NCBI RefSeq assembly: GCF_029773605.1
Contig: NZ_CP103807.1
Span: forward strand, 434,001 to 498,000
Direction of reading: 5' to 3'
DNA length: 64,000 bases
Origin: Actinobacillus genomosp. 2
GTDB taxonomy: Bacteria; Pseudomonadota; Gammaproteobacteria; Enterobacterales; Pasteurellaceae
The position numbers and the translations under genes are program-made. This document shows positions 28,947-40,257 of this stretch, in pieces (positions within the stretch are counted from its first letter, which is position 1; every line of letters begins with the position of its first letter). A model generated the notes under the pieces. That model ran no database searches. It was not told the DNA's origin and saw nothing but the letters and a program-made list of their open reading frames with translations.

Positions 28947-29841
28947 GTTTATCTCCTTCCTCATGATGATCTTCGACATCTTCTTCAACGTTTGGACCAA
29001 TCGTTACATAGTGAGCAACTTCAGCGAGGGCTAGACCACCCATTGCGATCGCCGCAACCGGTTTTAATACGTCTTTCCAAAGCGTAACTGTCGGATCAAT
29101 GCTTGGGTCTTTCGGTAAGCCCGAATATAACTCCGGTTTATCGGCATGATGTAATACGTACATTACGTGCGTACCGCCCACACCTTCAGGGTTATAAACA
29201 CCGGCATTTTCATAGCCACGACTTTTGAGTTCCGCTACACGTTGTTCGCCATAATGAAGCATTTCTTCTTTAGAACCGAAACGAATCGCACCAGTCGGGC
29301 AGGTTTTTACACAAGCCGGCTCTTGGCCTACGTTTACACGGTCAACGCAAAGGGTACATTTATATACACGGTTATCTTTATCGTTCATACGTGGAATATT
29401 AAACGGACAACCAGCAATACAGTAACCGCAACCGATACATTTATCGGATTGGAAATCAACAATACCATTTGCATATTGAATGATTGCGCCCGGTGCCGGA
29501 CAGGCTTTCAAACAACCCGGTTCTGCACAGTGCATACAACCGTCTTTACGAATTAACCATTCTAAGCGATCATTTTCTTCCACTTCATTGAACTTCATTA
29601 CCGTCCATTGTTCGGCATTTAGATCAATCGGGTTATCGTAAACACCCACACATTCTTGCGGAGCAGTACGGAGGTCATTCCATTCGGAACAACCTACTTG
29701 ACACGCTTTACAACCGATACAAGTTGATACATCGATAAGTTTAGCGACTTCTACTACACCACCGGTACGAGCTTGAGGTGGCGGAGTAACAAATGAAGTG
29801 GCTGAGATTTTAATAATGTTTTGGTCTTGAACTGCTGACAT
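28939..29841 (-). CDS. fdoH: Formate dehydrogenase iron-sulfur (beta) subunit
   Basis: Four [4Fe-4S] clusters carry electrons from the catalytic to the gamma subunit. Cys groups: [41 protein letters not shown] and [22 protein letters not shown] single C-terminal membrane anchor lies around residues 255-280 ([22 protein letters not shown]). It is 300 aa. It overlaps the alpha-subunit gene by one base (TAATG) and the gamma-subunit gene by 8 bases. Confidence 0.95.
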
Positions 29842-32800
29842 TATGCCACCTCCGACACTTTCTCAATGTTCACAAGGAACGTTTTGTATTCTGGGGTTTG
29901 CGTATTCGCATCACCGACACGACCGGTTAAACTATTTGCTAAGTAACCTTTTTTACCCACAGTTGCAAAGCCACCGTGAATTGGAATACCTACAGTATGG
30001 ATAGTTTTTCCGTCTGCTTCGACAGAACGTACACGTTTAGTTACCACAACTTTAGCTTTAATAAAACCACGTTTAGAACTTACTTTAACGGTATCACCGT
30101 TTGCAATACCTTTTTCTTTTGCCAATGCTTCACCGATTTCCACAAATGGTTCAGGTTGTGCAATAACATTTAACATCGCTTGTTTGGTCCAGAAGTGGAA
30201 ATGTTCCGTTAGACGGTAAGTTGTACCAACATAAGGGAATTCGTCTGCTGTACCGAAACTTGATTTATCACTTTCCAAAATACGAGCCACCGGATTTTGT
30301 ACCACATTCGGATGAAGTGGGTTCGTACCGATTGGGCTTTCGATTGGTTCATAATGCTCAGGGAACGGACCATCGACTAATTTATCAATGGCAAATAAAC
30401 GACTTACCCCTTCCGGCTGCATAATGAATGGACTTACATTACTATTTGGCGGTGCAGTTCCGAAGTCTGCCACATCAATATAGTTCCAGTTTTTACCATT
30501 CCATTTCACAAGCTGGCGTTTCGGGTTCCACGGTTTACCAGATGGATCTGCACTCGCACGGTTATAAACGATACGACGGTTTGCCGGCCATGCAAATGCC
30601 CAACCTAACGTATTACCTAAACCTGACGGGTCAGAGTTATCACGGTTTGCCATTTGGTTACCTTTTGGTGTCCATTGACCGGTATAGATCCAGTTACCTG
30701 AAGAGGTTGTACCGTCATTGCGAAGTTGTGCGAATGAAGAAAGTAATTCGCCTTTTTTCACTAAAACTTGACCGCTTGTCGGATCAATGATGTCTTCTAA
30801 TGCATAACCATTAATTTCTTTAGCTAACTCGTCTGCTTTCGGTTCTGCCGGATTTGCATAGTTCCAAGCCATTGCCTCAATCGTATCAATCGATTTACCA
30901 CCTTCATGGTGATACATTTCTAACATCACTTCACGGATTTCTGAAAGAATATCAACATCCGGTTTTGCTTCTTTTGGTGGCTCAGCTGCTTTCCAGTGCC
31001 ATTGTAGCCAACGTCCGGAGTTTGCAATCGAACCGTCTTCTTCCGCAAAACATACGGTTGGCAAACGGAATACTTCCGTTTGAATATCTGCCGGATTGAC
31101 ATCATTCATTTCACCATGGTTCTGCCAGAAGTTAGAGGTATCTGTTTCTAACGGATCTAAAATGACTAAGAATTTTAGCTTGCTTAAGCCTTTACGAACT
31201 TTGTTAGAATCCGGATAAGATGCAATCGGGTTATAACCTTGGCAAATATAACCGTTAACTTTTCCCTCTACCATCATATTGATGTATTGCATTGGGTCGA
31301 GTTTTTTCGGTAACTGTTTTGGTAAATTATGGAAACCGTATTCATTTTCAGCAGTTGCTTTGTCACCATAGAATGATTTAAGCAAACTGACTAAGAATTT
31401 CGGTGTATTTTGCCAATAGTTTACCTGACCTTCAGCCGTTGTTTTTGGTGTAATACGTTTTAAAAACGCATCTAATGACGCATCATTTTCTGTCGGAAGC
31501 GGCATATACCCGGTTAACATTGATGGGAATAACCCCATATCTGTAGAACCTTGCACGTTTGAGTGTCCGCGTAATGCATTTACACCGCCGCCAGCCATAC
31601 CGATATTACCGAGTAGCAACTGAATCATCGCCATTGAACGGATATTTTGTGTACCGACAGAGTGTTGTGTCCAACCTAACGCATATAAGAAAGTGGTTGT
31701 ACGTTCAGGTGTTGAGGTTGATGCAATGGTTTCCGCAAATTCTAAGAAGGCTTTTTGCTTCGTACCGCAGATACGTTCTACCATTTCCGGCGTGTAACGT
31801 TCAACGTGTGCTTTTAATAAGTTAATGACACAACGAGGATCTTGGAATGTTAAATCACGTTTCGGCTGACCGTTTTCATCAAGTTGATAAGACCAAGTTG
31901 ATTTATCGTATTGACGGGTTTCTGCATCGTAGCCGGAGAATAAACCGTCTTCAAATTTGAAGCCTTCGTTTACTAAGAAACTTGCGTTGGTATAGTGTTT
32001 AACGTATTCGTGTTGAATTTTATCGTTCGCTAACAAGTAACGGATCACACCTAATAACATTGCGATATCGGTACCCGAACGAATCGGTGTATAGAAATCT
32101 GCAACAGATGCCGTACGGTTAAAGCGTGGATCAACCACCATTAACTTCGCACCGTTTTGTTTTTTCGCTTCGATTGCCCAGCGGAAACCGACAGGGTGTG
32201 CTTCAGCGGCATTACCGCCCATTACGACCACAACGTCCGCATTTTTGATATCAACCCAGTGATTTGTCATGGCACCGCGACCAAATGTTGGAGCAAGACT
32301 TGCTACCGTTGGTCCGTGTCAGGTACTCGCTTGGTTGTCTAAGTAGAGCATACCGAGAGAACGCCCCCACTTATGCGTGAGGTAACAGGTTTCATTACTT
32401 GCGGCAGAGGCACATAACATACCTGTGGTGAGCCAACGATTTACCGGTGTACCGGCTTCGTTGGTTGCTTGGAAGTTCGCATCACGGTCTTCTTTCAACA
32501 GTTTTGCAATTTTATGAATAGCATCATGCCATGAAATGCGTTCCCATTTATCAGAACCCGGAGCGCGATATTCTGGATATTGTAAACGGTTTGGACTGTT
32601 CACAAAATCTAAAACACCTGCACCTTTAGGGCATAACGCACCACGACTTACCGGATGATCCGGATCACCTTCAACGTGGAATAATTTACCACGTGAATTC
32701 ATTGCACCGTCACCCATGCTGTACATCAGCATACCGCAGCCTACGGCGCAATATGTGCAAGATTGGCGAGTTTCTTTTGCACGCAAAAGTTTATACTCAC

Positions 32801-32906
32801 GAGGGGCTGCTAATGCGGTTGCCGGTGCAAAACCTAACATTGCCGCAGAAGTACCTGCCATACCACTTGCACAGATCTTAAAGAACTTACGTCTAGAGAC
32901 CTGCAT
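29841..32906 (-). CDS. fdnG: Selenocysteine-containing formate dehydrogenase catalytic (alpha) subunit
   Basis: Molybdenum/tungsten bis-MGD enzyme oxidising formate in the periplasm. The Tat signal is clear (SRRKFFK, residues 4-10). An N-terminal [4Fe-4S] site follows ([18 protein letters not shown]). The in-frame TGA at 32319-32321 falls exactly at the [27 protein letters not shown] position where selenocysteine ligates Mo, so both open-frame parts form one gene of 1021 aa with Sec. Start ATG 32906 has AGGAG 6 bases upstream. It heads the fdnG-fdoH-fdoI operon, divergent from fdhD. FdnG/FdoG/FdxG naming is arbitrary here. Confidence 0.95.
32290..32307 (-). other. SECIS element of fdnG
   Basis: On the minus strand, 11 nt after the UGA, GG-U-AGCA-AGUCU-UGCU-CC can fold into a short hairpin with a bulged U below the loop. 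The spacing and bulged U match my memory of the E. coli fdhF/fdnG SECIS, so SelB should direct Sec insertion. Confidence 0.8.
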
Positions 32907-33341
32907 AATCACTCCTAATTAAACATTAATAAGATAATTAATGTGAATGTAAATAACTCAGAATCTTTAACTGTAACATACACCTAAAGAGACGGTTATT
33001 ATTGACCTTTATAGATAATAAGCTATACCCAATCGTAAGTAAAAACAGCTTTATTTGCACTTAATTTGATATAGCTTAAATATTCGGTATAACACACTTG
33101 GATTGAAAAATTCTAGTGTATATTTTGCAAGAATTTAACAACTTTTACGCTGGAATTGCAAGCAAAACAATCTTTTTTGTTAAAAAAATGTTAATCAAGT
33201 TGAGAGTGATTCTTATTAGATGCGTTTTAGCCAGTATATAAAGTAGAATCTAACTTTTGAGGTTTAAATCCCCTTAAAAAATTGTAGAATAGCTGTACCT
33301 AATTTTAGGATCAATAGACCCGAGTACGAATGAGAATATAA
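32907..33341. other. fdnG-fdhD divergent intergenic region
   Basis: 435 bp, A/T-rich and without a gene. It should contain both divergent promoters. I see an 8-bp inverted pair AAGCTATA (33020-33027) / TATAGCTT (33070-33077). I looked for FNR (TTGAT-N4-ATCAA) and NarL sites; only half-matches such as TTGAT near 33066 and ATCAA at 33195-33199 exist. Anaerobic control is expected from function but not demonstrated by a site. Confidence 0.5.
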
Positions 33342-35176: not shown

Positions 35177-36607
35177 TTAGTGACCTAAACCGCTGGCTCC
35201 AAGCATAATAGCAAAGAGTGCCATTTGTAATTCAGATTCTGAAACCTCTCTCCCATTGAGCATCACTTTGCCGTTTTCAATTGCTAATGCCATTTTAATC
35301 TTTTCAGCATCTACGCTAGCTAATCCTGAGCTTTGAGCATAATGAGCCAATTCTTGTACAAGTGCTTTCGCATTTTCTTCCGCTGTTCCGGCTTGATGCT
35401 CCGGATAAATTGTTAACCACTGTTTAGCCGCTTCCTCACTTGCAGCTAAGTTTAGATTAACGTTTAGATTTGACGGTTTAAAGATTTTAAGCGTATCTTG
35501 GATAGATTTCGCTTGCGACATCTGTAACATATCAAATTTATCTAAATCCAGATTGAGTGAAAGCGTATTTTTCCCTTTCGCATTTTCAAGCGAAAATTCG
35601 TTGATTTTTAATTTTGGCGATTGAGTCACTAATGCCATAACAATCGCTTGAATCTGTTGCTGAACTTCAGGTGATTCACTTTCTAATTTATCTGAAAGTG
35701 CCGTTAAATCGTTAAATGCTTTTGCATCAACATCCATTGAAATATCGGTTTGAATCTTGCCTAAATCGGCAGTTTTATTATTCCCAGTAAGATCGGATTT
35801 TACTGAAAAATTGCCGGAACTTAGAAGACGTCCGTTCTCAATTTTGCTATTGCCTTTAGAGGTAAACTCATTGAGACTGACCGTTTGATTATTCTCGGCA
35901 AAGAGAGCCAGCTTTTTAAATGAAACGTGGTAGTCGCCAATACCTTGTAAAGTTGGAAATTGCTTATCTTTGACATAATTCGCATCGTAATTTAAGTCAG
36001 TAATTTCAATTTTTTCGTGGTTTTGTTCGGGGCTAGCATCGGCATTTTTAAATCTAATTAAATCTGCAGTAAATTTCTGTTTGCCGAAACCGGTATAATC
36101 ACCTTCAAAATGAATTTTTGAGGTCTCGATAGTATCTGATTTTAATGGATTAAGCGTAGCATTACCGGCAACTTCTCCGTTGTAGTTCACATCAGTAATA
36201 GCAGTAAGTACATCGTTATTAGCAAAATAGGTCTGAATACTTTTATCAACCGCAGAAATATGCGTTTCTCCACTTAATAACATTGGCATAAAGTTACCTT
36301 TCATTAGGCGATTAAGCGGAATTGGACCGTGATAAACTTTATCATTACCTTTAAAGCTAAAGGTTTGAGTATCGAGTTTTATATTGACGTTATATTGAAC
36401 ATCTGAACTAAAAATACCTTTGGTGAGTTTTACATCACTAATATTGGCATCAATCCCGTAAGAATTAAGTGATTTTAGACTATTGTTAGCTTGTTCAAAT
36501 AGTGTTGGATAACGCTGTTCAATTTGGTTGCCCGTATACCACGCACCGCCGGTTGTCATTGCGGCCAAAGCAACAATAATAGAAGCTGCAACGGTTGATT
36601 TTTTCAT
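35177..36607 (-). CDS. DUF945 (YdgA-like) protein
   Basis: 476-aa protein of the DUF945/YdgA family: one N-terminal signal anchor (STVAASIIVALAAMTTGGAWYTG) followed by a long periplasmic, beta-rich region (GNQIEQRYPTLFEQANNSLKSL, FKGNDKVYHGPIPL). Such proteins resemble AsmA/YdbH-type envelope proteins in shape, but the function is not established. The family has GNxIExxxP near the anchor, which is seen here. It is monocistronic between two hairpins. Confidence 0.85.
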   Translation of the reverse strand: MKKSTVAASIIVALAAMTTGGAWYTGNQIEQRYPTLFEQANNSLKSLNSYGIDANISDVKLTKGIFSSDVQYNVNIKLDTQTFSFKGNDKVYHGPIPLNRLMKGNFMPMLLSGETHISAVDKSIQTYFANNDVLTAITDVNYNGEVAGNATLNPLKSDTIETSKIHFEGDYTGFGKQKFTADLIRFKNADASPEQNHEKIEITDLNYDANYVKDKQFPTLQGIGDYHVSFKKLALFAENNQTVSLNEFTSKGNSKIENGRLLSSGNFSVKSDLTGNNKTADLGKIQTDISMDVDAKAFNDLTALSDKLESESPEVQQQIQAIVMALVTQSPKLKINEFSLENAKGKNTLSLNLDLDKFDMLQMSQAKSIQDTLKIFKPSNLNVNLNLAASEEAAKQWLTIYPEHQAGTAEENAKALVQELAHYAQSSGLASVDAEKIKMALAIENGKVMLNGREVSESELQMALFAIMLGASGLGH

Positions 36608-36695: not shown

Positions 36696-38813
36696 TTAGT
36701 TTTCAGCTTGTTGGATTAACCATTCGCAAGGTTCAAATCGCTTACCGAATTGCTTACGATGAAGATGTAATTGACGTACAATTTCTTTTGCACCGATTTT
36801 CTCTATATAAGCATAGATACCGCCTCGGAATTCCGGAAATCCCGTACCGAGTACAGATGCGACATTTCCTTCATCCGTAGATAAAATGACGTTATCTTGC
36901 AAGCACCAGGCTGCCTCATTAATCATGCGCAAGACACAACGGCGTGCAATTTGTTCGGATTCCAAGTCGTTACGAGCTATGGTTTCCATTACGTGATAAA
37001 TGCTTTTATCCTCCTGTAAACGTTCGCCAAAACGGTTGTACATATAAAATCCTCGTTTATTCTTACAGCCCTTGCGTTCATTTCTGACTAATAGATCAAC
37101 ACTATTCGGTAAACTAAATCGTGAACCTAATTCACGCACTAATGCCGGATTAGATTTAACCAATACGTCCAGCCCCATTTCATCGATCATCGCCAACGGG
37201 CCTAACTTAAAGCCAAATTCTTGTAATGAACGATCGATAAATTCGATTGACTCACCGTCAATTAAACATTGAATCGCTTCAAGTAATAATGGTGTTAAGA
37301 TTCGATTAATGAAAAAGCCTTGTTTATCTGCCACCAAGAGCGGTACTTTTCCTTGCTGAATCGCAAAATGAATTGCCGTTGCAATCGTATGTTCGCTGGT
37401 TGTGGTATGCGGTATGATTTCCACTATTTTTTGTTTAGTCACCGGACTAAAGTAATGTAGGCCAATGACATTTTCCGGACGTAGCGCATGAGTAGCAATA
37501 TCTTTAATAGCTAAGGTCGAGGTATTTGTCGCAAAAATGATATGTTTACTATAATAATTTTCACTCTCTAATAACATTCGTTGCTTAAGTGCGAGATCTT
37601 CATATACCGCTTCAATAACAAAATCAGTTGATTTAGCCGCGACTAATCGCTCTCCACCTGTAATGAGATTCATTCTTTGGAGCATTTCGCCATGGTTTAA
37701 TTGATTGTTATCTACGGCTTTTTGCATTAATTCAAAGCTGGTACGTAATGCTTTACGAATTTCAGAGGGATGAATATCTTTAATGCGAACAGGAACTTTC
37801 GCATTATTTGCAGTTAAATAAGCAATGCCGGCACCCATATAACCTGAGCCTAAAATACTCACTTGAGTGATGTCGCGAACGTTACCACGAATACGATATT
37901 TATCTTTCATTGCTCGTTCGGTTTTCTTCAATTCAATTAATACTTTTGACGTTTCCGTATTAAACAATTCTACAAAGGCTTGCTGTTCAAGAATTAAACC
38001 TTGTTTAAAATGCGGTTCTTTAAGTAATTCGATTAGTTTAGCGACCGCAGGATAGTTACCGAATGTTTCAAGCCAAATTAAGTTTTCTGTTCGATCTAAA
38101 AACTTATGACGGAATAATTTGTTGCCCTCTAATTGTTTACGCCACTTTTTGAAGAGAGTAAGCGGTCGTTTATGATCGGTTTTTTGTATTTTACTGCTAT
38201 GCAATAATTGGTAAGCCGTAGCCAGTAATTTTGTGTTAGGTACTAGTTGATCCACTAATCCTAAAGATTTTGCTGCTGTCGCATCAATTTTCTTACCGGA
38301 TAACAATAAAGGTGTTGCGTTTTGTAACCCAATCAAACGAGGTAAGCGTTGCGTTCCTCCGGCAAAGGGTAAAAGACCCGAACGGACCTGAGGCATAGCA
38401 AATTGAGTATGTGGCTCATCGCTGGCAATTCGATAATCGCAGGCTAAAGCAAGTTCTAAACCGACACTAAAGCAATTACCATCAATCGCCGCAATAATCG
38501 GTAATTTAAGCGTATTGAGTTCTCGCATGATAGCTTGAGCATTTTGTGAAAATGCTAATAACTGTTCATCCGTTTTTTGTTTGAGAATACTGGGTTTTAA
38601 GCCTTGGATAAAATTATTCTGACGAGCGGAAATCAGAATTGCACCTTGAGCTTGTTGGTAAATAAGCGTACCGATTACATCACGTAATTGCTCTGCAAAG
38701 TTTTCGGTTAACCAGTTGGCATCATTATCAGCGGAATGGATACGAATGATGGCAATTCGATTATCATCCACTTCCACCTGAAACATTGGCGGTTGAATTA
38801 ATTGTTCTGTCAT
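36696..38813 (-). CDS. fadJ: Fatty acid oxidation complex alpha subunit FadJ-like; altered hydratase site
   Basis: 705-aa bifunctional enoyl-CoA hydratase/3-hydroxyacyl-CoA dehydrogenase of the FadJ type. In the N-terminal crotonase domain the first catalytic Glu is kept (GLELALACDYRIAS), but the second, in the PEV motif before GLLP..GGTQRLPR, is Gln (AMPQVRSGLLP; CAG codon read from 38388-38390). The glycine-rich oxyanion segment is also altered (NCFSVGLE for xCLGGGLE). The dehydrogenase domain looks intact: NAD site GSGYMGAGIAYL, catalytic His in GLHYFSPV and Glu in KIVEII. It follows fadI by 9 bp. The hydratase half may be weak or inactive. Confidence 0.88.
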   Translation of the reverse strand: MTEQLIQPPMFQVEVDDNRIAIIRIHSADNDANWLTENFAEQLRDVIGTLIYQQAQGAILISARQNNFIQGLKPSILKQKTDEQLLAFSQNAQAIMRELNTLKLPIIAAIDGNCFSVGLELALACDYRIASDEPHTQFAMPQVRSGLLPFAGGTQRLPRLIGLQNATPLLLSGKKIDATAAKSLGLVDQLVPNTKLLATAYQLLHSSKIQKTDHKRPLTLFKKWRKQLEGNKLFRHKFLDRTENLIWLETFGNYPAVAKLIELLKEPHFKQGLILEQQAFVELFNTETSKVLIELKKTERAMKDKYRIRGNVRDITQVSILGSGYMGAGIAYLTANNAKVPVRIKDIHPSEIRKALRTSFELMQKAVDNNQLNHGEMLQRMNLITGGERLVAAKSTDFVIEAVYEDLALKQRMLLESENYYSKHIIFATNTSTLAIKDIATHALRPENVIGLHYFSPVTKQKIVEIIPHTTTSEHTIATAIHFAIQQGKVPLLVADKQGFFINRILTPLLLEAIQCLIDGESIEFIDRSLQEFGFKLGPLAMIDEMGLDVLVKSNPALVRELGSRFSLPNSVDLLVRNERKGCKNKRGFYMYNRFGERLQEDKSIYHVMETIARNDLESEQIARRCVLRMINEAAWCLQDNVILSTDEGNVASVLGTGFPEFRGGIYAYIEKIGAKEIVRQLHLHRKQFGKRFEPCEWLIQQAEN

Positions 38814-38822
38814 AATCTATCC

Positions 38823-40127
38823 TTATTCGCTTTCTAATACCATTGCTGCCCCTAATCCACCTAAACCACTTGAGGCAACTAATGAAAGACCGCCGCCTTT
38901 ACGTTTAAGTGCATAAAGCGATTGAATGATCGTACGTAGACTAGTTACCGCACGAGGATTACCAAAAGCAATAGAACCGCCCAAATGATTGAATTTGTCC
39001 ATATCGATTTTACCCAAACAAGCGGTACGATTTAGCTGATTTTTAGCAAAGTCATTCGATTCAAATAATCGGAGATTCGCCAAGATTTGGCTAGCGGACG
39101 ACTCGTGAATATCAATATAATCCATATCTTGCAAACTTAATTCCGCTCGATCTAAAGCCTGTGAGCTGGCAATTGTCGCACCGGCAAACATATCTTGCCA
39201 AATATCATTACCAGTAATCGCATAGCTACGAATATAGCCTAAAGGCGTTAAGCCGAGAGCTTTGGCTTTGGATTCATTCATCAGTAATACAGCTGCCGCA
39301 CCGTCCATCGGTTGTGGCATATTGGCTTCAGTGACTGTGGCATATTCTTTATTCACAATCGGTGAGAATCGTTGATAATAGCTTTCTCTAGTTGCCGCAG
39401 ACACTAATGTATCCGAAACCACAAAATCTTTATAAGGGCGAGGAAATGACGGCATTACTTCTTCTTTTAATAGACCAATTTTCCACGCATCGGACGCTCT
39501 TTGATTGGAAAGACGAGCATATTCGTCTTGTTCCGCACGGCTAATATTATGATCTTGTGCCATCTGTTCCGACACTTCGGCTACTGACATTTGGGTAGTA
39601 AAATCTCTTAAATTCACACCGTGAGGTTTCAGATCTTTCCACGAAAAATGACGAAAACGGCGATATTTTTCCTCAAGCGATCCTGTGGCAAAAATAGATT
39701 TCAATTTATAGATAACCCGAGGGCTAATACTGAGTGGTGCATTTGAAATAGAATCCGCACCACCGGCAATGCCGGCATTAATTGAACCACTGACAATACT
39801 GCCGGCAACATTGGCAATCGCTTGTAAACCGGATAAACACGAACTACTGATACTATAAGACTGTAATTTAGGCATATTTAATGCCAATGCGATTTCTCTT
39901 GCCGGATTAGGAATATCGGGCTGTTGAATAACTTGTCCGAAAACCAGTTGTTCGATTTCATGGTGTTCAATTGCCGTACGGCTAAGTAATTCATTGGTTA
40001 CGATTGTGCCAAGACTGGTCGCATAAGCGTCTTTAAACCCAGTATCTTTTCGAGCAAAAGGGGTTCTCAGTCCGGATACAATCGCAACACGCTCACCTTT
40101 TGTGGTCAGTAAGTGCTGATTCGGCAT
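38823..40127 (-). CDS. fadI: Acetyl-CoA acyltransferase FadI-like thiolase; catalytic His and second Cys replaced
   Basis: 434-aa thiolase-family protein most like FadI, partner of fadJ. The nucleophile Cys is kept (SISSSCLSGLQAI, about residue 98). The two other hallmark residues are changed: the GHP His is Asn (GGSIAFGNP, AAT codon, 38958-38960), and the C-terminal Cys of the CxxGGLGAAM motif is Ser (SSGLGGLGAAMVLE, AGT codon, 38868-38870). Each differs from the expected codon by one base. The reading frame is intact, so it is either a recently inactivated thiolase or one with changed chemistry. The FadI call rests on overall similarity recalled from the family. Confidence 0.85.
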   Translation of the reverse strand: MPNQHLLTTKGERVAIVSGLRTPFARKDTGFKDAYATSLGTIVTNELLSRTAIEHHEIEQLVFGQVIQQPDIPNPAREIALALNMPKLQSYSISSSCLSGLQAIANVAGSIVSGSINAGIAGGADSISNAPLSISPRVIYKLKSIFATGSLEEKYRRFRHFSWKDLKPHGVNLRDFTTQMSVAEVSEQMAQDHNISRAEQDEYARLSNQRASDAWKIGLLKEEVMPSFPRPYKDFVVSDTLVSAATRESYYQRFSPIVNKEYATVTEANMPQPMDGAAAVLLMNESKAKALGLTPLGYIRSYAITGNDIWQDMFAGATIASSQALDRAELSLQDMDYIDIHESSASQILANLRLFESNDFAKNQLNRTACLGKIDMDKFNHLGGSIAFGNPRAVTSLRTIIQSLYALKRKGGGLSLVASSGLGGLGAAMVLESE

Positions 40128-40257
40128 TATTTATCCTTATCGGGAGGGGATTAGAATTGTAAAGCCAGTATTGTAACACCGTTAGTTTGAAAATAAATAA
40201 CGGATATGTAACGCTAAAGGGGGAATTAATAGGAGGGGAAGAGGGATGGATAAACAC

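Follow-up and report, generated by a model that had tools for sequence, protein, structure and literature searches.

A conserved FadI-FadJ pair of Pasteurellaceae with altered catalytic residues, possibly switched to a new function

The genes fadI and fadJ, which encode the two chains of a putative fatty acid oxidation complex, lie side by side on the minus strand of a stretch of 64,000 nucleotides from Actinobacillus genomosp. 2 (contig NZ_CP103807.1, positions 434,001 to 498,000; in the following called the window). The pair has lost hallmark catalytic residues of the thiolase and of the hydratase, and this altered form was found in every fadIJ-bearing Pasteurellaceae genome that we searched (49 genomes, 48 of them readable at the C-terminal FadI sites). 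We tentatively propose, and give it somewhat less than an even chance, that the window pair represents the Pasteurellaceae form of the anaerobic-type trifunctional FadI-FadJ complex, whose function was switched a single time, at an early point of the family's fadIJ lineage, with strong purifying selection acting on the pair ever since. Judged from the sequences, it might combine an acyl-Cys transferase or an enzyme similar to ketoacyl-acyl carrier protein synthase III (KAS III) with an NAD-dependent 3-hydroxyacyl dehydrogenase. The two genes and the codons in question are located in the window as follows:

38823..40127, minus strand: fadI, FadI-type thiolase homologue of 434 amino acids (aa), open frame, altered site with C97, H341, N390 and S420
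36696..38813, minus strand: fadJ, FadJ-type alpha chain of 705 aa, open frame, hydratase altered (Q142), 3-hydroxyacyl-CoA dehydrogenase domain intact
39837..39839, minus strand: codon TGT of the FadI nucleophile Cys97; Cys in 49/49 genomes
39105..39107, minus strand: codon CAC of FadI His341 in the motif HE(S/T)S; His in 48/48 readable genomes
38958..38960, minus strand: codon AAT of FadI Asn390, GNP in place of GHP; Asn in 41 and Ser in 7 of 48
38868..38870, minus strand: codon AGT of FadI Ser420 at the site of the CxG Cys; Ser in 38, Gly in 7 and Cys in 3 of 48
38454..38456, minus strand: codon of FadJ Glu120, the first hydratase Glu; retained in 49/49
38388..38390, minus strand: codon CAG of FadJ Gln142, which replaces the second hydratase Glu; Gln in 49/49

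Comparison with FadI and FadJ of E. coli K-12 defined the altered sites. In the window FadI, SRAC around the nucleophile reads SSSC, HEAF reads HESS, GHPF reads GNPR with Arg392 at its end, and ACA at the CxG Cys reads SSG. Hence, from the catalytic set of a thiolase, i.e. Cys, HEAF His, GHP His and CxG Cys, the first two are present and the last two are missing; the thiolase fingerprints and the roles of their residues are described in an excerpt of PMC3406046. The column-wise comparison of 48 FadI and 49 FadJ variants with the canonical group revealed 72 FadI columns with the same conserved residue in the two groups, and a further 10 in which each group conserves a residue of its own. The exchanges F346S, F394R (the Arg directly after GNP) and A424L, in E. 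coli numbering, are each found in 48/48 variants. In FadJ, the motif GLELAL with E120 is unchanged and PEV is turned into PQV at Q142, leaving one of the two hydratase Glu residues; moreover, the AGAD motif of the hydratase and the middle Gly of its GGG motif are lost. The dehydrogenase motifs TNTS, GLHYFSP and FFINR with their Ser, His and Asn are intact in the window copy, where we take these three residues and those of the hydratase to have the roles assigned to them in the literature on crotonases and 3-hydroxyacyl-CoA dehydrogenases.

The first-pass annotation of this DNA had reported Asn for the catalytic His of FadI, Ser for its C-terminal catalytic Cys and Gln for the second hydratase Glu of FadJ, two open frames, and an otherwise retained FadI nucleophile and set of FadJ dehydrogenase motifs, all of which agrees with the alignments to E. 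coli FadI and FadJ. In the alignment of the 49 Pasteurellaceae homologues, the missing catalytic residues are not conserved elsewhere. It was also correct that each of the three codons is one base off a codon for the expected residue; however, this short distance is misleading, because the changes are common to the whole family. The first-pass annotation did not mention HESS in place of HEAF, the Arg392 of GNPR, or the lost AGAD motif and middle Gly of GGG in the hydratase.

The window proteins are homologues of FadI and FadJ. FadI consists of Thiolase_N and Thiolase_C and is 46% identical to E. coli FadI (8bnu/8bnr) over nearly the full length (3e-118); FadJ has the expected architecture of ECH_1, 3HCDH_N and 3HCDH and is 40% identical to E. 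coli FadJ (8bnr/6ysv), again over nearly the full length (3e-156), and these two E. coli proteins are the closest solved structures to the pair. An AlphaFold2 model of FadI built with the 48-sequence alignment was confident, with a mean predicted local distance difference test (pLDDT) of 85.7 and a predicted template modelling score (pTM) of 0.86. Structure searches with this model returned a thiolase fold nearest to FadI/TFE-beta, with a template modelling (TM) score of 0.87 to E. coli FadI 8bnr_A, and also the H348N variant of the Zoogloea ramigera thiolase (2wl5), so that full-length homology and fold agree in the assignment to FadI; FabH was not among the 50 matches listed, which carries no weight in either direction. 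The top NCBIfam models are those of FadI and FadJ, yet both proteins stay clearly under the equivalog cut-offs, FadI with 484.6 of 560 bits for NF006516 and 453.2 of 711.55 for TIGR02446, FadJ with 709 of 869 for NF008363 and 669.2 of 968.45 for TIGR02440.

Both genes were detected in 49 of 140 Pasteurellaceae genomes, covering 24 genera, and in these 49 they always occur together (the window copy, G000, is counted once). A canonical FadIJ was seen in none of the 140 genomes, where the other thiolase matches are at most 38% identical. The genome G001 has a broken fadI frame and was left out of the C-terminal counts and the FadI alignments; its N-terminal piece is included in the Cys97 count, and in the family search its FadI was scored across the stop. 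Of 295 genomes searched across the order, 193 had a match, which includes 10 Pasteurellaceae and 183 genomes from outside the family. Among the latter, 18 were read for the motifs; they were picked to represent different families and come for the most part from the stronger of the matches listed. All 18, which come from 12 other families, have the canonical residues at all altered sites, as does E. coli. The best FadI of another family in the order search scored 414.6 bits (48% identity), compared to 484.8 bits (52%) for the lowest-scoring FadI of the 49 Pasteurellaceae genomes, and the search of 303 genomes drawn evenly from the class gave, at E 1e-105, just the window genome and one member of the order (44% identity, homology only). 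Within the sampled genomes, the altered FadIJ was therefore seen only in Pasteurellaceae. Among the open-access papers listed in searches on FadIJ of Pasteurellaceae or Actinobacillus, none was seen to describe an altered subfamily; a table in PMC1805755 gives fadIJ as 0 in four columns, which we took by table order as Pasteurellaceae. Outside the family, the genome G175, one of the 18, has canonical thiolase and hydratase sites and shows TSR in FadJ in place of the dehydrogenase Asn motif VNR.

In the FadI tree, the 48 variants form one clade (support 0.999) on a long stem of 0.67 substitutions per site, and the same is true for the 49 variants in the FadJ tree (support 1.0, stem of 1.03 substitutions per site). 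The fadIJ tree comprises a main clade of 31 genomes, including that of the window, and a deeper clade of 18. Pairwise ratios of nonsynonymous to synonymous substitution rates (dN/dS, Nei-Gojobori) ranged from 0.010 to 0.089 in 19 intact FadI pairs and from 0.019 to 0.083 in 19 unsaturated FadJ pairs. From the canonical pairs, one gave 0.148 for FadI and 0.162 for FadJ, the other 0.071 for FadJ with saturated FadI; saturated dS gave no usable ratio for G000-G002 and G000-G068 in FadJ and for the canonical G163-G297 in FadI. Since independent genomes share the identical altered residues, sequencing error or misalignment was rejected.

The first-pass annotation had offered two explanations, selective decay of a beta-oxidation complex or its retention for other chemistry, which are opposites. 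The decay of an unused beta-oxidation operon would suit a small genome (1.88 Mb, labelled as 81.9% complete) that has no acyl-CoA dehydrogenase domain and whose nearest relative, G001, carries a broken fadI. Nevertheless, decay is hardly credible, because the same residues recur in all fadIJ-bearing genomes among the 140, across 24 genera and in one clade, dN/dS is as low as 0.01-0.09 in intact pairs, and a promoter-like element is common to 17/17 aligned upstream regions; on the basis of the family-wide alignment, dN/dS and the tree it was rejected. The idea of other chemistry gained from the same conservation, from the absence of PF00441 and from the retained Cys, His and dehydrogenase residues. 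As to G001 itself, its fadI has two single-base gaps relative to the window gene near codons 240-280 and a frame that stops at about codon 258, the broken gene gave ratios of 0.122 and 0.054 over 257 codons, and its fadJ is open and constrained; the fadI break is either a real loss or an assembly error.

The acyl-CoA dehydrogenase domain PF00441 is absent from the window genome and from all 49 fadIJ genomes (the E. coli control was positive), therefore ordinary beta-oxidation cannot start; the domain was found in 7 of the 140 Pasteurellaceae genomes, and all 7 are without fadIJ. The query with E. coli FadE gave 0/140 matches and was run without a positive control, hence the pathway argument rests on PF00441. 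Judged by these protein families, the fadIJ genomes do not encode a complete beta-oxidation cycle. FadD is present in 140/140 genomes and the acyl-CoA dehydrogenase domain in only 7, so the acyl-CoA of Pasteurellaceae is probably made for a purpose other than beta-oxidation. A canonical copy that could relieve the altered pair was not found in the window genome, where the FadI search at E<=0.01 gave a single match and thus no second thiolase. Likewise, FadJ matched once in each positive genome at E<=1e-20, so that a second copy of the FadB type was not seen in any of the 49. At least one further thiolase with 30-38% identity occurs in 13 of the 49 and not in the other 36 at E<=1e-20, a threshold at which more distant thiolases may be missed.

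The distribution of constraint within the two proteins can be used to weigh what is left of their function. Among the FadJ variants, mean pairwise identity is 53.4% in the hydratase part (ECH), 68.5% and 69.4% in the dehydrogenase domains and 67.5% in the C-terminal part, compared to 60.6%, 62.9 and 68.4%, and 55.7% in canonical FadJ; therefore, constraint on the variants is relaxed in the hydratase part and tight in the dehydrogenase domains. In the variant FadI, the four catalytic loops reach 76.3, 76.7, 81.9 and 85.7% against 64.7% for the whole protein, Glu342 is kept beside His341 in 48/48, and the Gly residues that follow the CxG site stay conserved. FadI could in principle have become a pseudoenzyme that serves as scaffold, leaving the 3-hydroxyacyl-CoA dehydrogenase of FadJ as the sole working part. 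This would fit the loss of the GHP His in 48/48 and of the CxG Cys in 45/48, FadI loops that are less conserved than in canonical proteins, a conservation of FadJ that is highest in the dehydrogenase domains, and the co-occurrence of FadI and FadJ in all 49 genomes. A scaffold, however, would not need catalytic loops at 76-86% identity when FadI overall stands at 65%, nor Cys97 in 49/49 and His341 with Glu342 in 48/48, and seven genomes have replaced the dehydrogenase Ser yet keep the FadI Cys and His. We regard it as improbable. Those seven genomes (G034-G037 and G132-G134) are the ones with GSP in FadI; their dehydrogenase Ser is Leu or Asn, and in three of them the Asn is exchanged for Thr, i.e. 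this sub-branch has moved further.

Under the proposed switch of function, FadI would still load an acyl group onto Cys97. With its set of Cys, His, Asn/Ser and Ser/Gly it would work like KAS III (FabH) and not like a thiolase, i.e. it would no longer condense via deprotonation of acetyl-CoA, and would instead either transfer its acyl group onto an acceptor or join it to a malonyl thioester by decarboxylation. FadJ would interconvert the 3-keto product and the 3-hydroxyacyl thioester with NAD(H), and because the hydratase would be dead, the 3-hydroxyacyl compound would be either the end product or the substrate. In three genera, the pair is joined by a methyltransferase gene directly downstream of fadJ. 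The comparison with FabH comes from hhalign, in which a profile of the 48 FadI variants was set against 25 FabH sequences: C97 fell on C112, H341 on H244 and N390 on N274 without offset, and SSGLGG of FadI fell, again without offset in the same weak profile alignment, on the glycines of the FGGGFT-like motif of FabH. The canonical FadI profile gave no sensible alignment with FabH in this test. Cys112-His244-Asn274 is the triad of FabH according to an excerpt of PMC11801535, and the available part of PMC5724707 assigns the acyl group to the Cys and the binding of the malonyl partner to His and Asn. The most specific version of the proposal, in which a thiolase was turned in nature into a decarboxylating enzyme of the KAS III type inside an intact FadI-FadJ complex, making out of a degradative fat-oxidation complex a biosynthetic condense-and-reduce machine with a Pasteurellaceae-specific 3-hydroxyacyl product that is perhaps methylated in three genera, is a rather improbable one.

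Several points weigh against the proposed switch. The likeness to FabH is one of sequence profiles and is weak (probability 5.5%, E 0.002), and the Cys-His-Asn set is not universal, since 7/48 variants have Ser for Asn; in 3/48 (G007, G138 and G139) the CxG site is occupied by Cys, though their GHP site has Asn. All four FadI loops are less conserved than in the canonical group (92.1, 89.6, 95.7 and 89.8%, with 70.8% overall), and in the seven GSP genomes the dehydrogenase Ser is replaced too, together with the Asn in three of them. FabH was present in all 25 relatives searched, among them the window genome; hence, the initiation of fatty acid synthesis does not call for another KAS III. Finally, the PcaF double mutant H356A/C386A retains 5% and H356A alone 30% of native activity, as given in an excerpt of PMC7337054, so slow thiolysis could survive in the altered FadI.

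This last point leads to the main rival explanation, namely slow thiolysis of ready-made 3-hydroxyacyl-CoA, followed in rank by the FadJ-only enzyme on a FadI scaffold. Here, FadI would be a slower or tuned thiolase, and the pair would cleave 3-hydroxyacyl- or 3-ketoacyl-CoA from the host or from turnover, such as that of 3-hydroxy fatty acids, so that these substrates would join the cycle beyond the dehydrogenase and hydratase steps that are missing. Such a direction requires neither acyl-CoA dehydrogenase nor hydratase, acyl-CoA can be made because FadD is present in 140/140 genomes, and conservation extends to the Cys, the His and the Gly residues that follow the CxG site. Reportedly, the Z. 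ramigera mutant H348N is impaired far more in condensation than in thiolysis, and E. coli FadB E139Q is said to lose hydratase and to keep isomerase activity. On the other hand, ten switched conserved positions, including F394R in a catalytic loop in 48/48, resemble a new specificity and not erosion, and a slow thiolase leaves unexplained why not a single one of the 48 sequences has kept His at the GHP site. We consider this explanation unlikely.

Among known systems, E. coli FadI-FadJ (8bnr/8bnu/6ysv) is the obvious reference for the window pair, with which it shares gene order, domain architecture, fold, nucleophile Cys, HE His and dehydrogenase residues. The window pair differs from it by the missing GHP His, CxG Cys, second hydratase Glu and AGAD motif, by HESS and the Arg after GNP, and by the lack of an acyl-CoA dehydrogenase partner. 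KAS III or FabH belongs to the same superfamily as the thiolases, as stated in an excerpt of PMC3406046; in contrast to it, the altered FadI adjoins fadJ rather than a fab operon, has Ser in place of Asn in 7/48 and reaches a weak sequence score only. From the same excerpt, TLP1 of Mycobacterium smegmatis is comparable as a subfamily of thiolase fold that is conserved and has altered catalytic fingerprints; TLP1 carries an additional domain at its C-terminus and is devoid of the nucleophile Cys, whereas FadI of Pasteurellaceae retains the Cys and its FadJ partner. The Z. ramigera variants H348N (2wl5) and N316H (2wku) and PcaF H356A/C386A are laboratory-made. H348N and the PcaF mutant remove the same His, PcaF also the same Cys, that is missing in the altered FadI; however, the engineered enzymes retain the rest of the canonical site and FadI differs at ten more positions. 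The Pasteurellaceae pair represents a natural counterpart of the laboratory His348 mutants of thiolase, selected across 24 genera, which would offer a route to study how a thiolase is turned into something else. Laboratory mutants of the second hydratase Glu are a counterpart to the altered FadJ as well.

These findings also affect annotation. The label 'fatty acid oxidation complex' is likely wrong for FadIJ of Pasteurellaceae, for it was given by homology and implies residues that these proteins lack, and the sampled carriers are without an acyl-CoA dehydrogenase domain. If the function was indeed switched, metabolic models of commensal and pathogenic Pasteurellaceae of animals and humans would be wrong at the FadIJ step, and a conserved complex would exist whose product is yet to be found.

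The surroundings of fadIJ contain two further features:

40170..40178, minus strand: TGTTACAAT, element ahead of fadI that resembles an extended -10 box; TGnTAnAAT in 17/17 aligned upstream regions
35177..36607, minus strand: DUF945 gene (PF06097), the next gene after fadJ and in the same orientation

The element TGnTAnAAT is located about 40 bases ahead of the fadI start codon and is shared by 17 chosen main-clade regions out of 48 retrieved; it may be an extended -10 promoter. Scans for FNR and CRP sites upstream of fadI gave just scattered weak matches. The genes upstream of fadIJ vary across the main-clade contexts. DUF945 adjoins fadJ in 28 of the 31 main-clade genomes (20 of the 23 contexts opened, the other 8 by coordinates), the exceptions being G083, G114 and G115. 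The possibility that DUF945 is a dedicated third subunit was weakened by its presence in 134/140 Pasteurellaceae genomes irrespective of fadIJ; therefore, the link between them is one of place. Two tandem DUF945 genes directly 3' of fadJ were observed in G047.

Of the 18 genomes of the deeper clade, 11, which belong to three genera, have a gene for a class I methyltransferase immediately after fadJ. At E<=1e-20 this methyltransferase was found in these 11 of the 140 genomes alone and always beside fadJ, which is good evidence that it shares a job with fadIJ in the three genera. The models that fit it best are generic (Methyltransf_11), all NCBIfam matches are far under cut-off, and in G050 and G053 the match spans a TAA.

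Elsewhere in the window, positions 29841-32912 (minus strand) encode the alpha subunit of formate dehydrogenase with one in-frame TGA at 32319-32321, which fits the selenocysteine codon expected there. It is adjoined by frames that we take to be its beta and gamma subunits and by a presumably fdhD-like gene.

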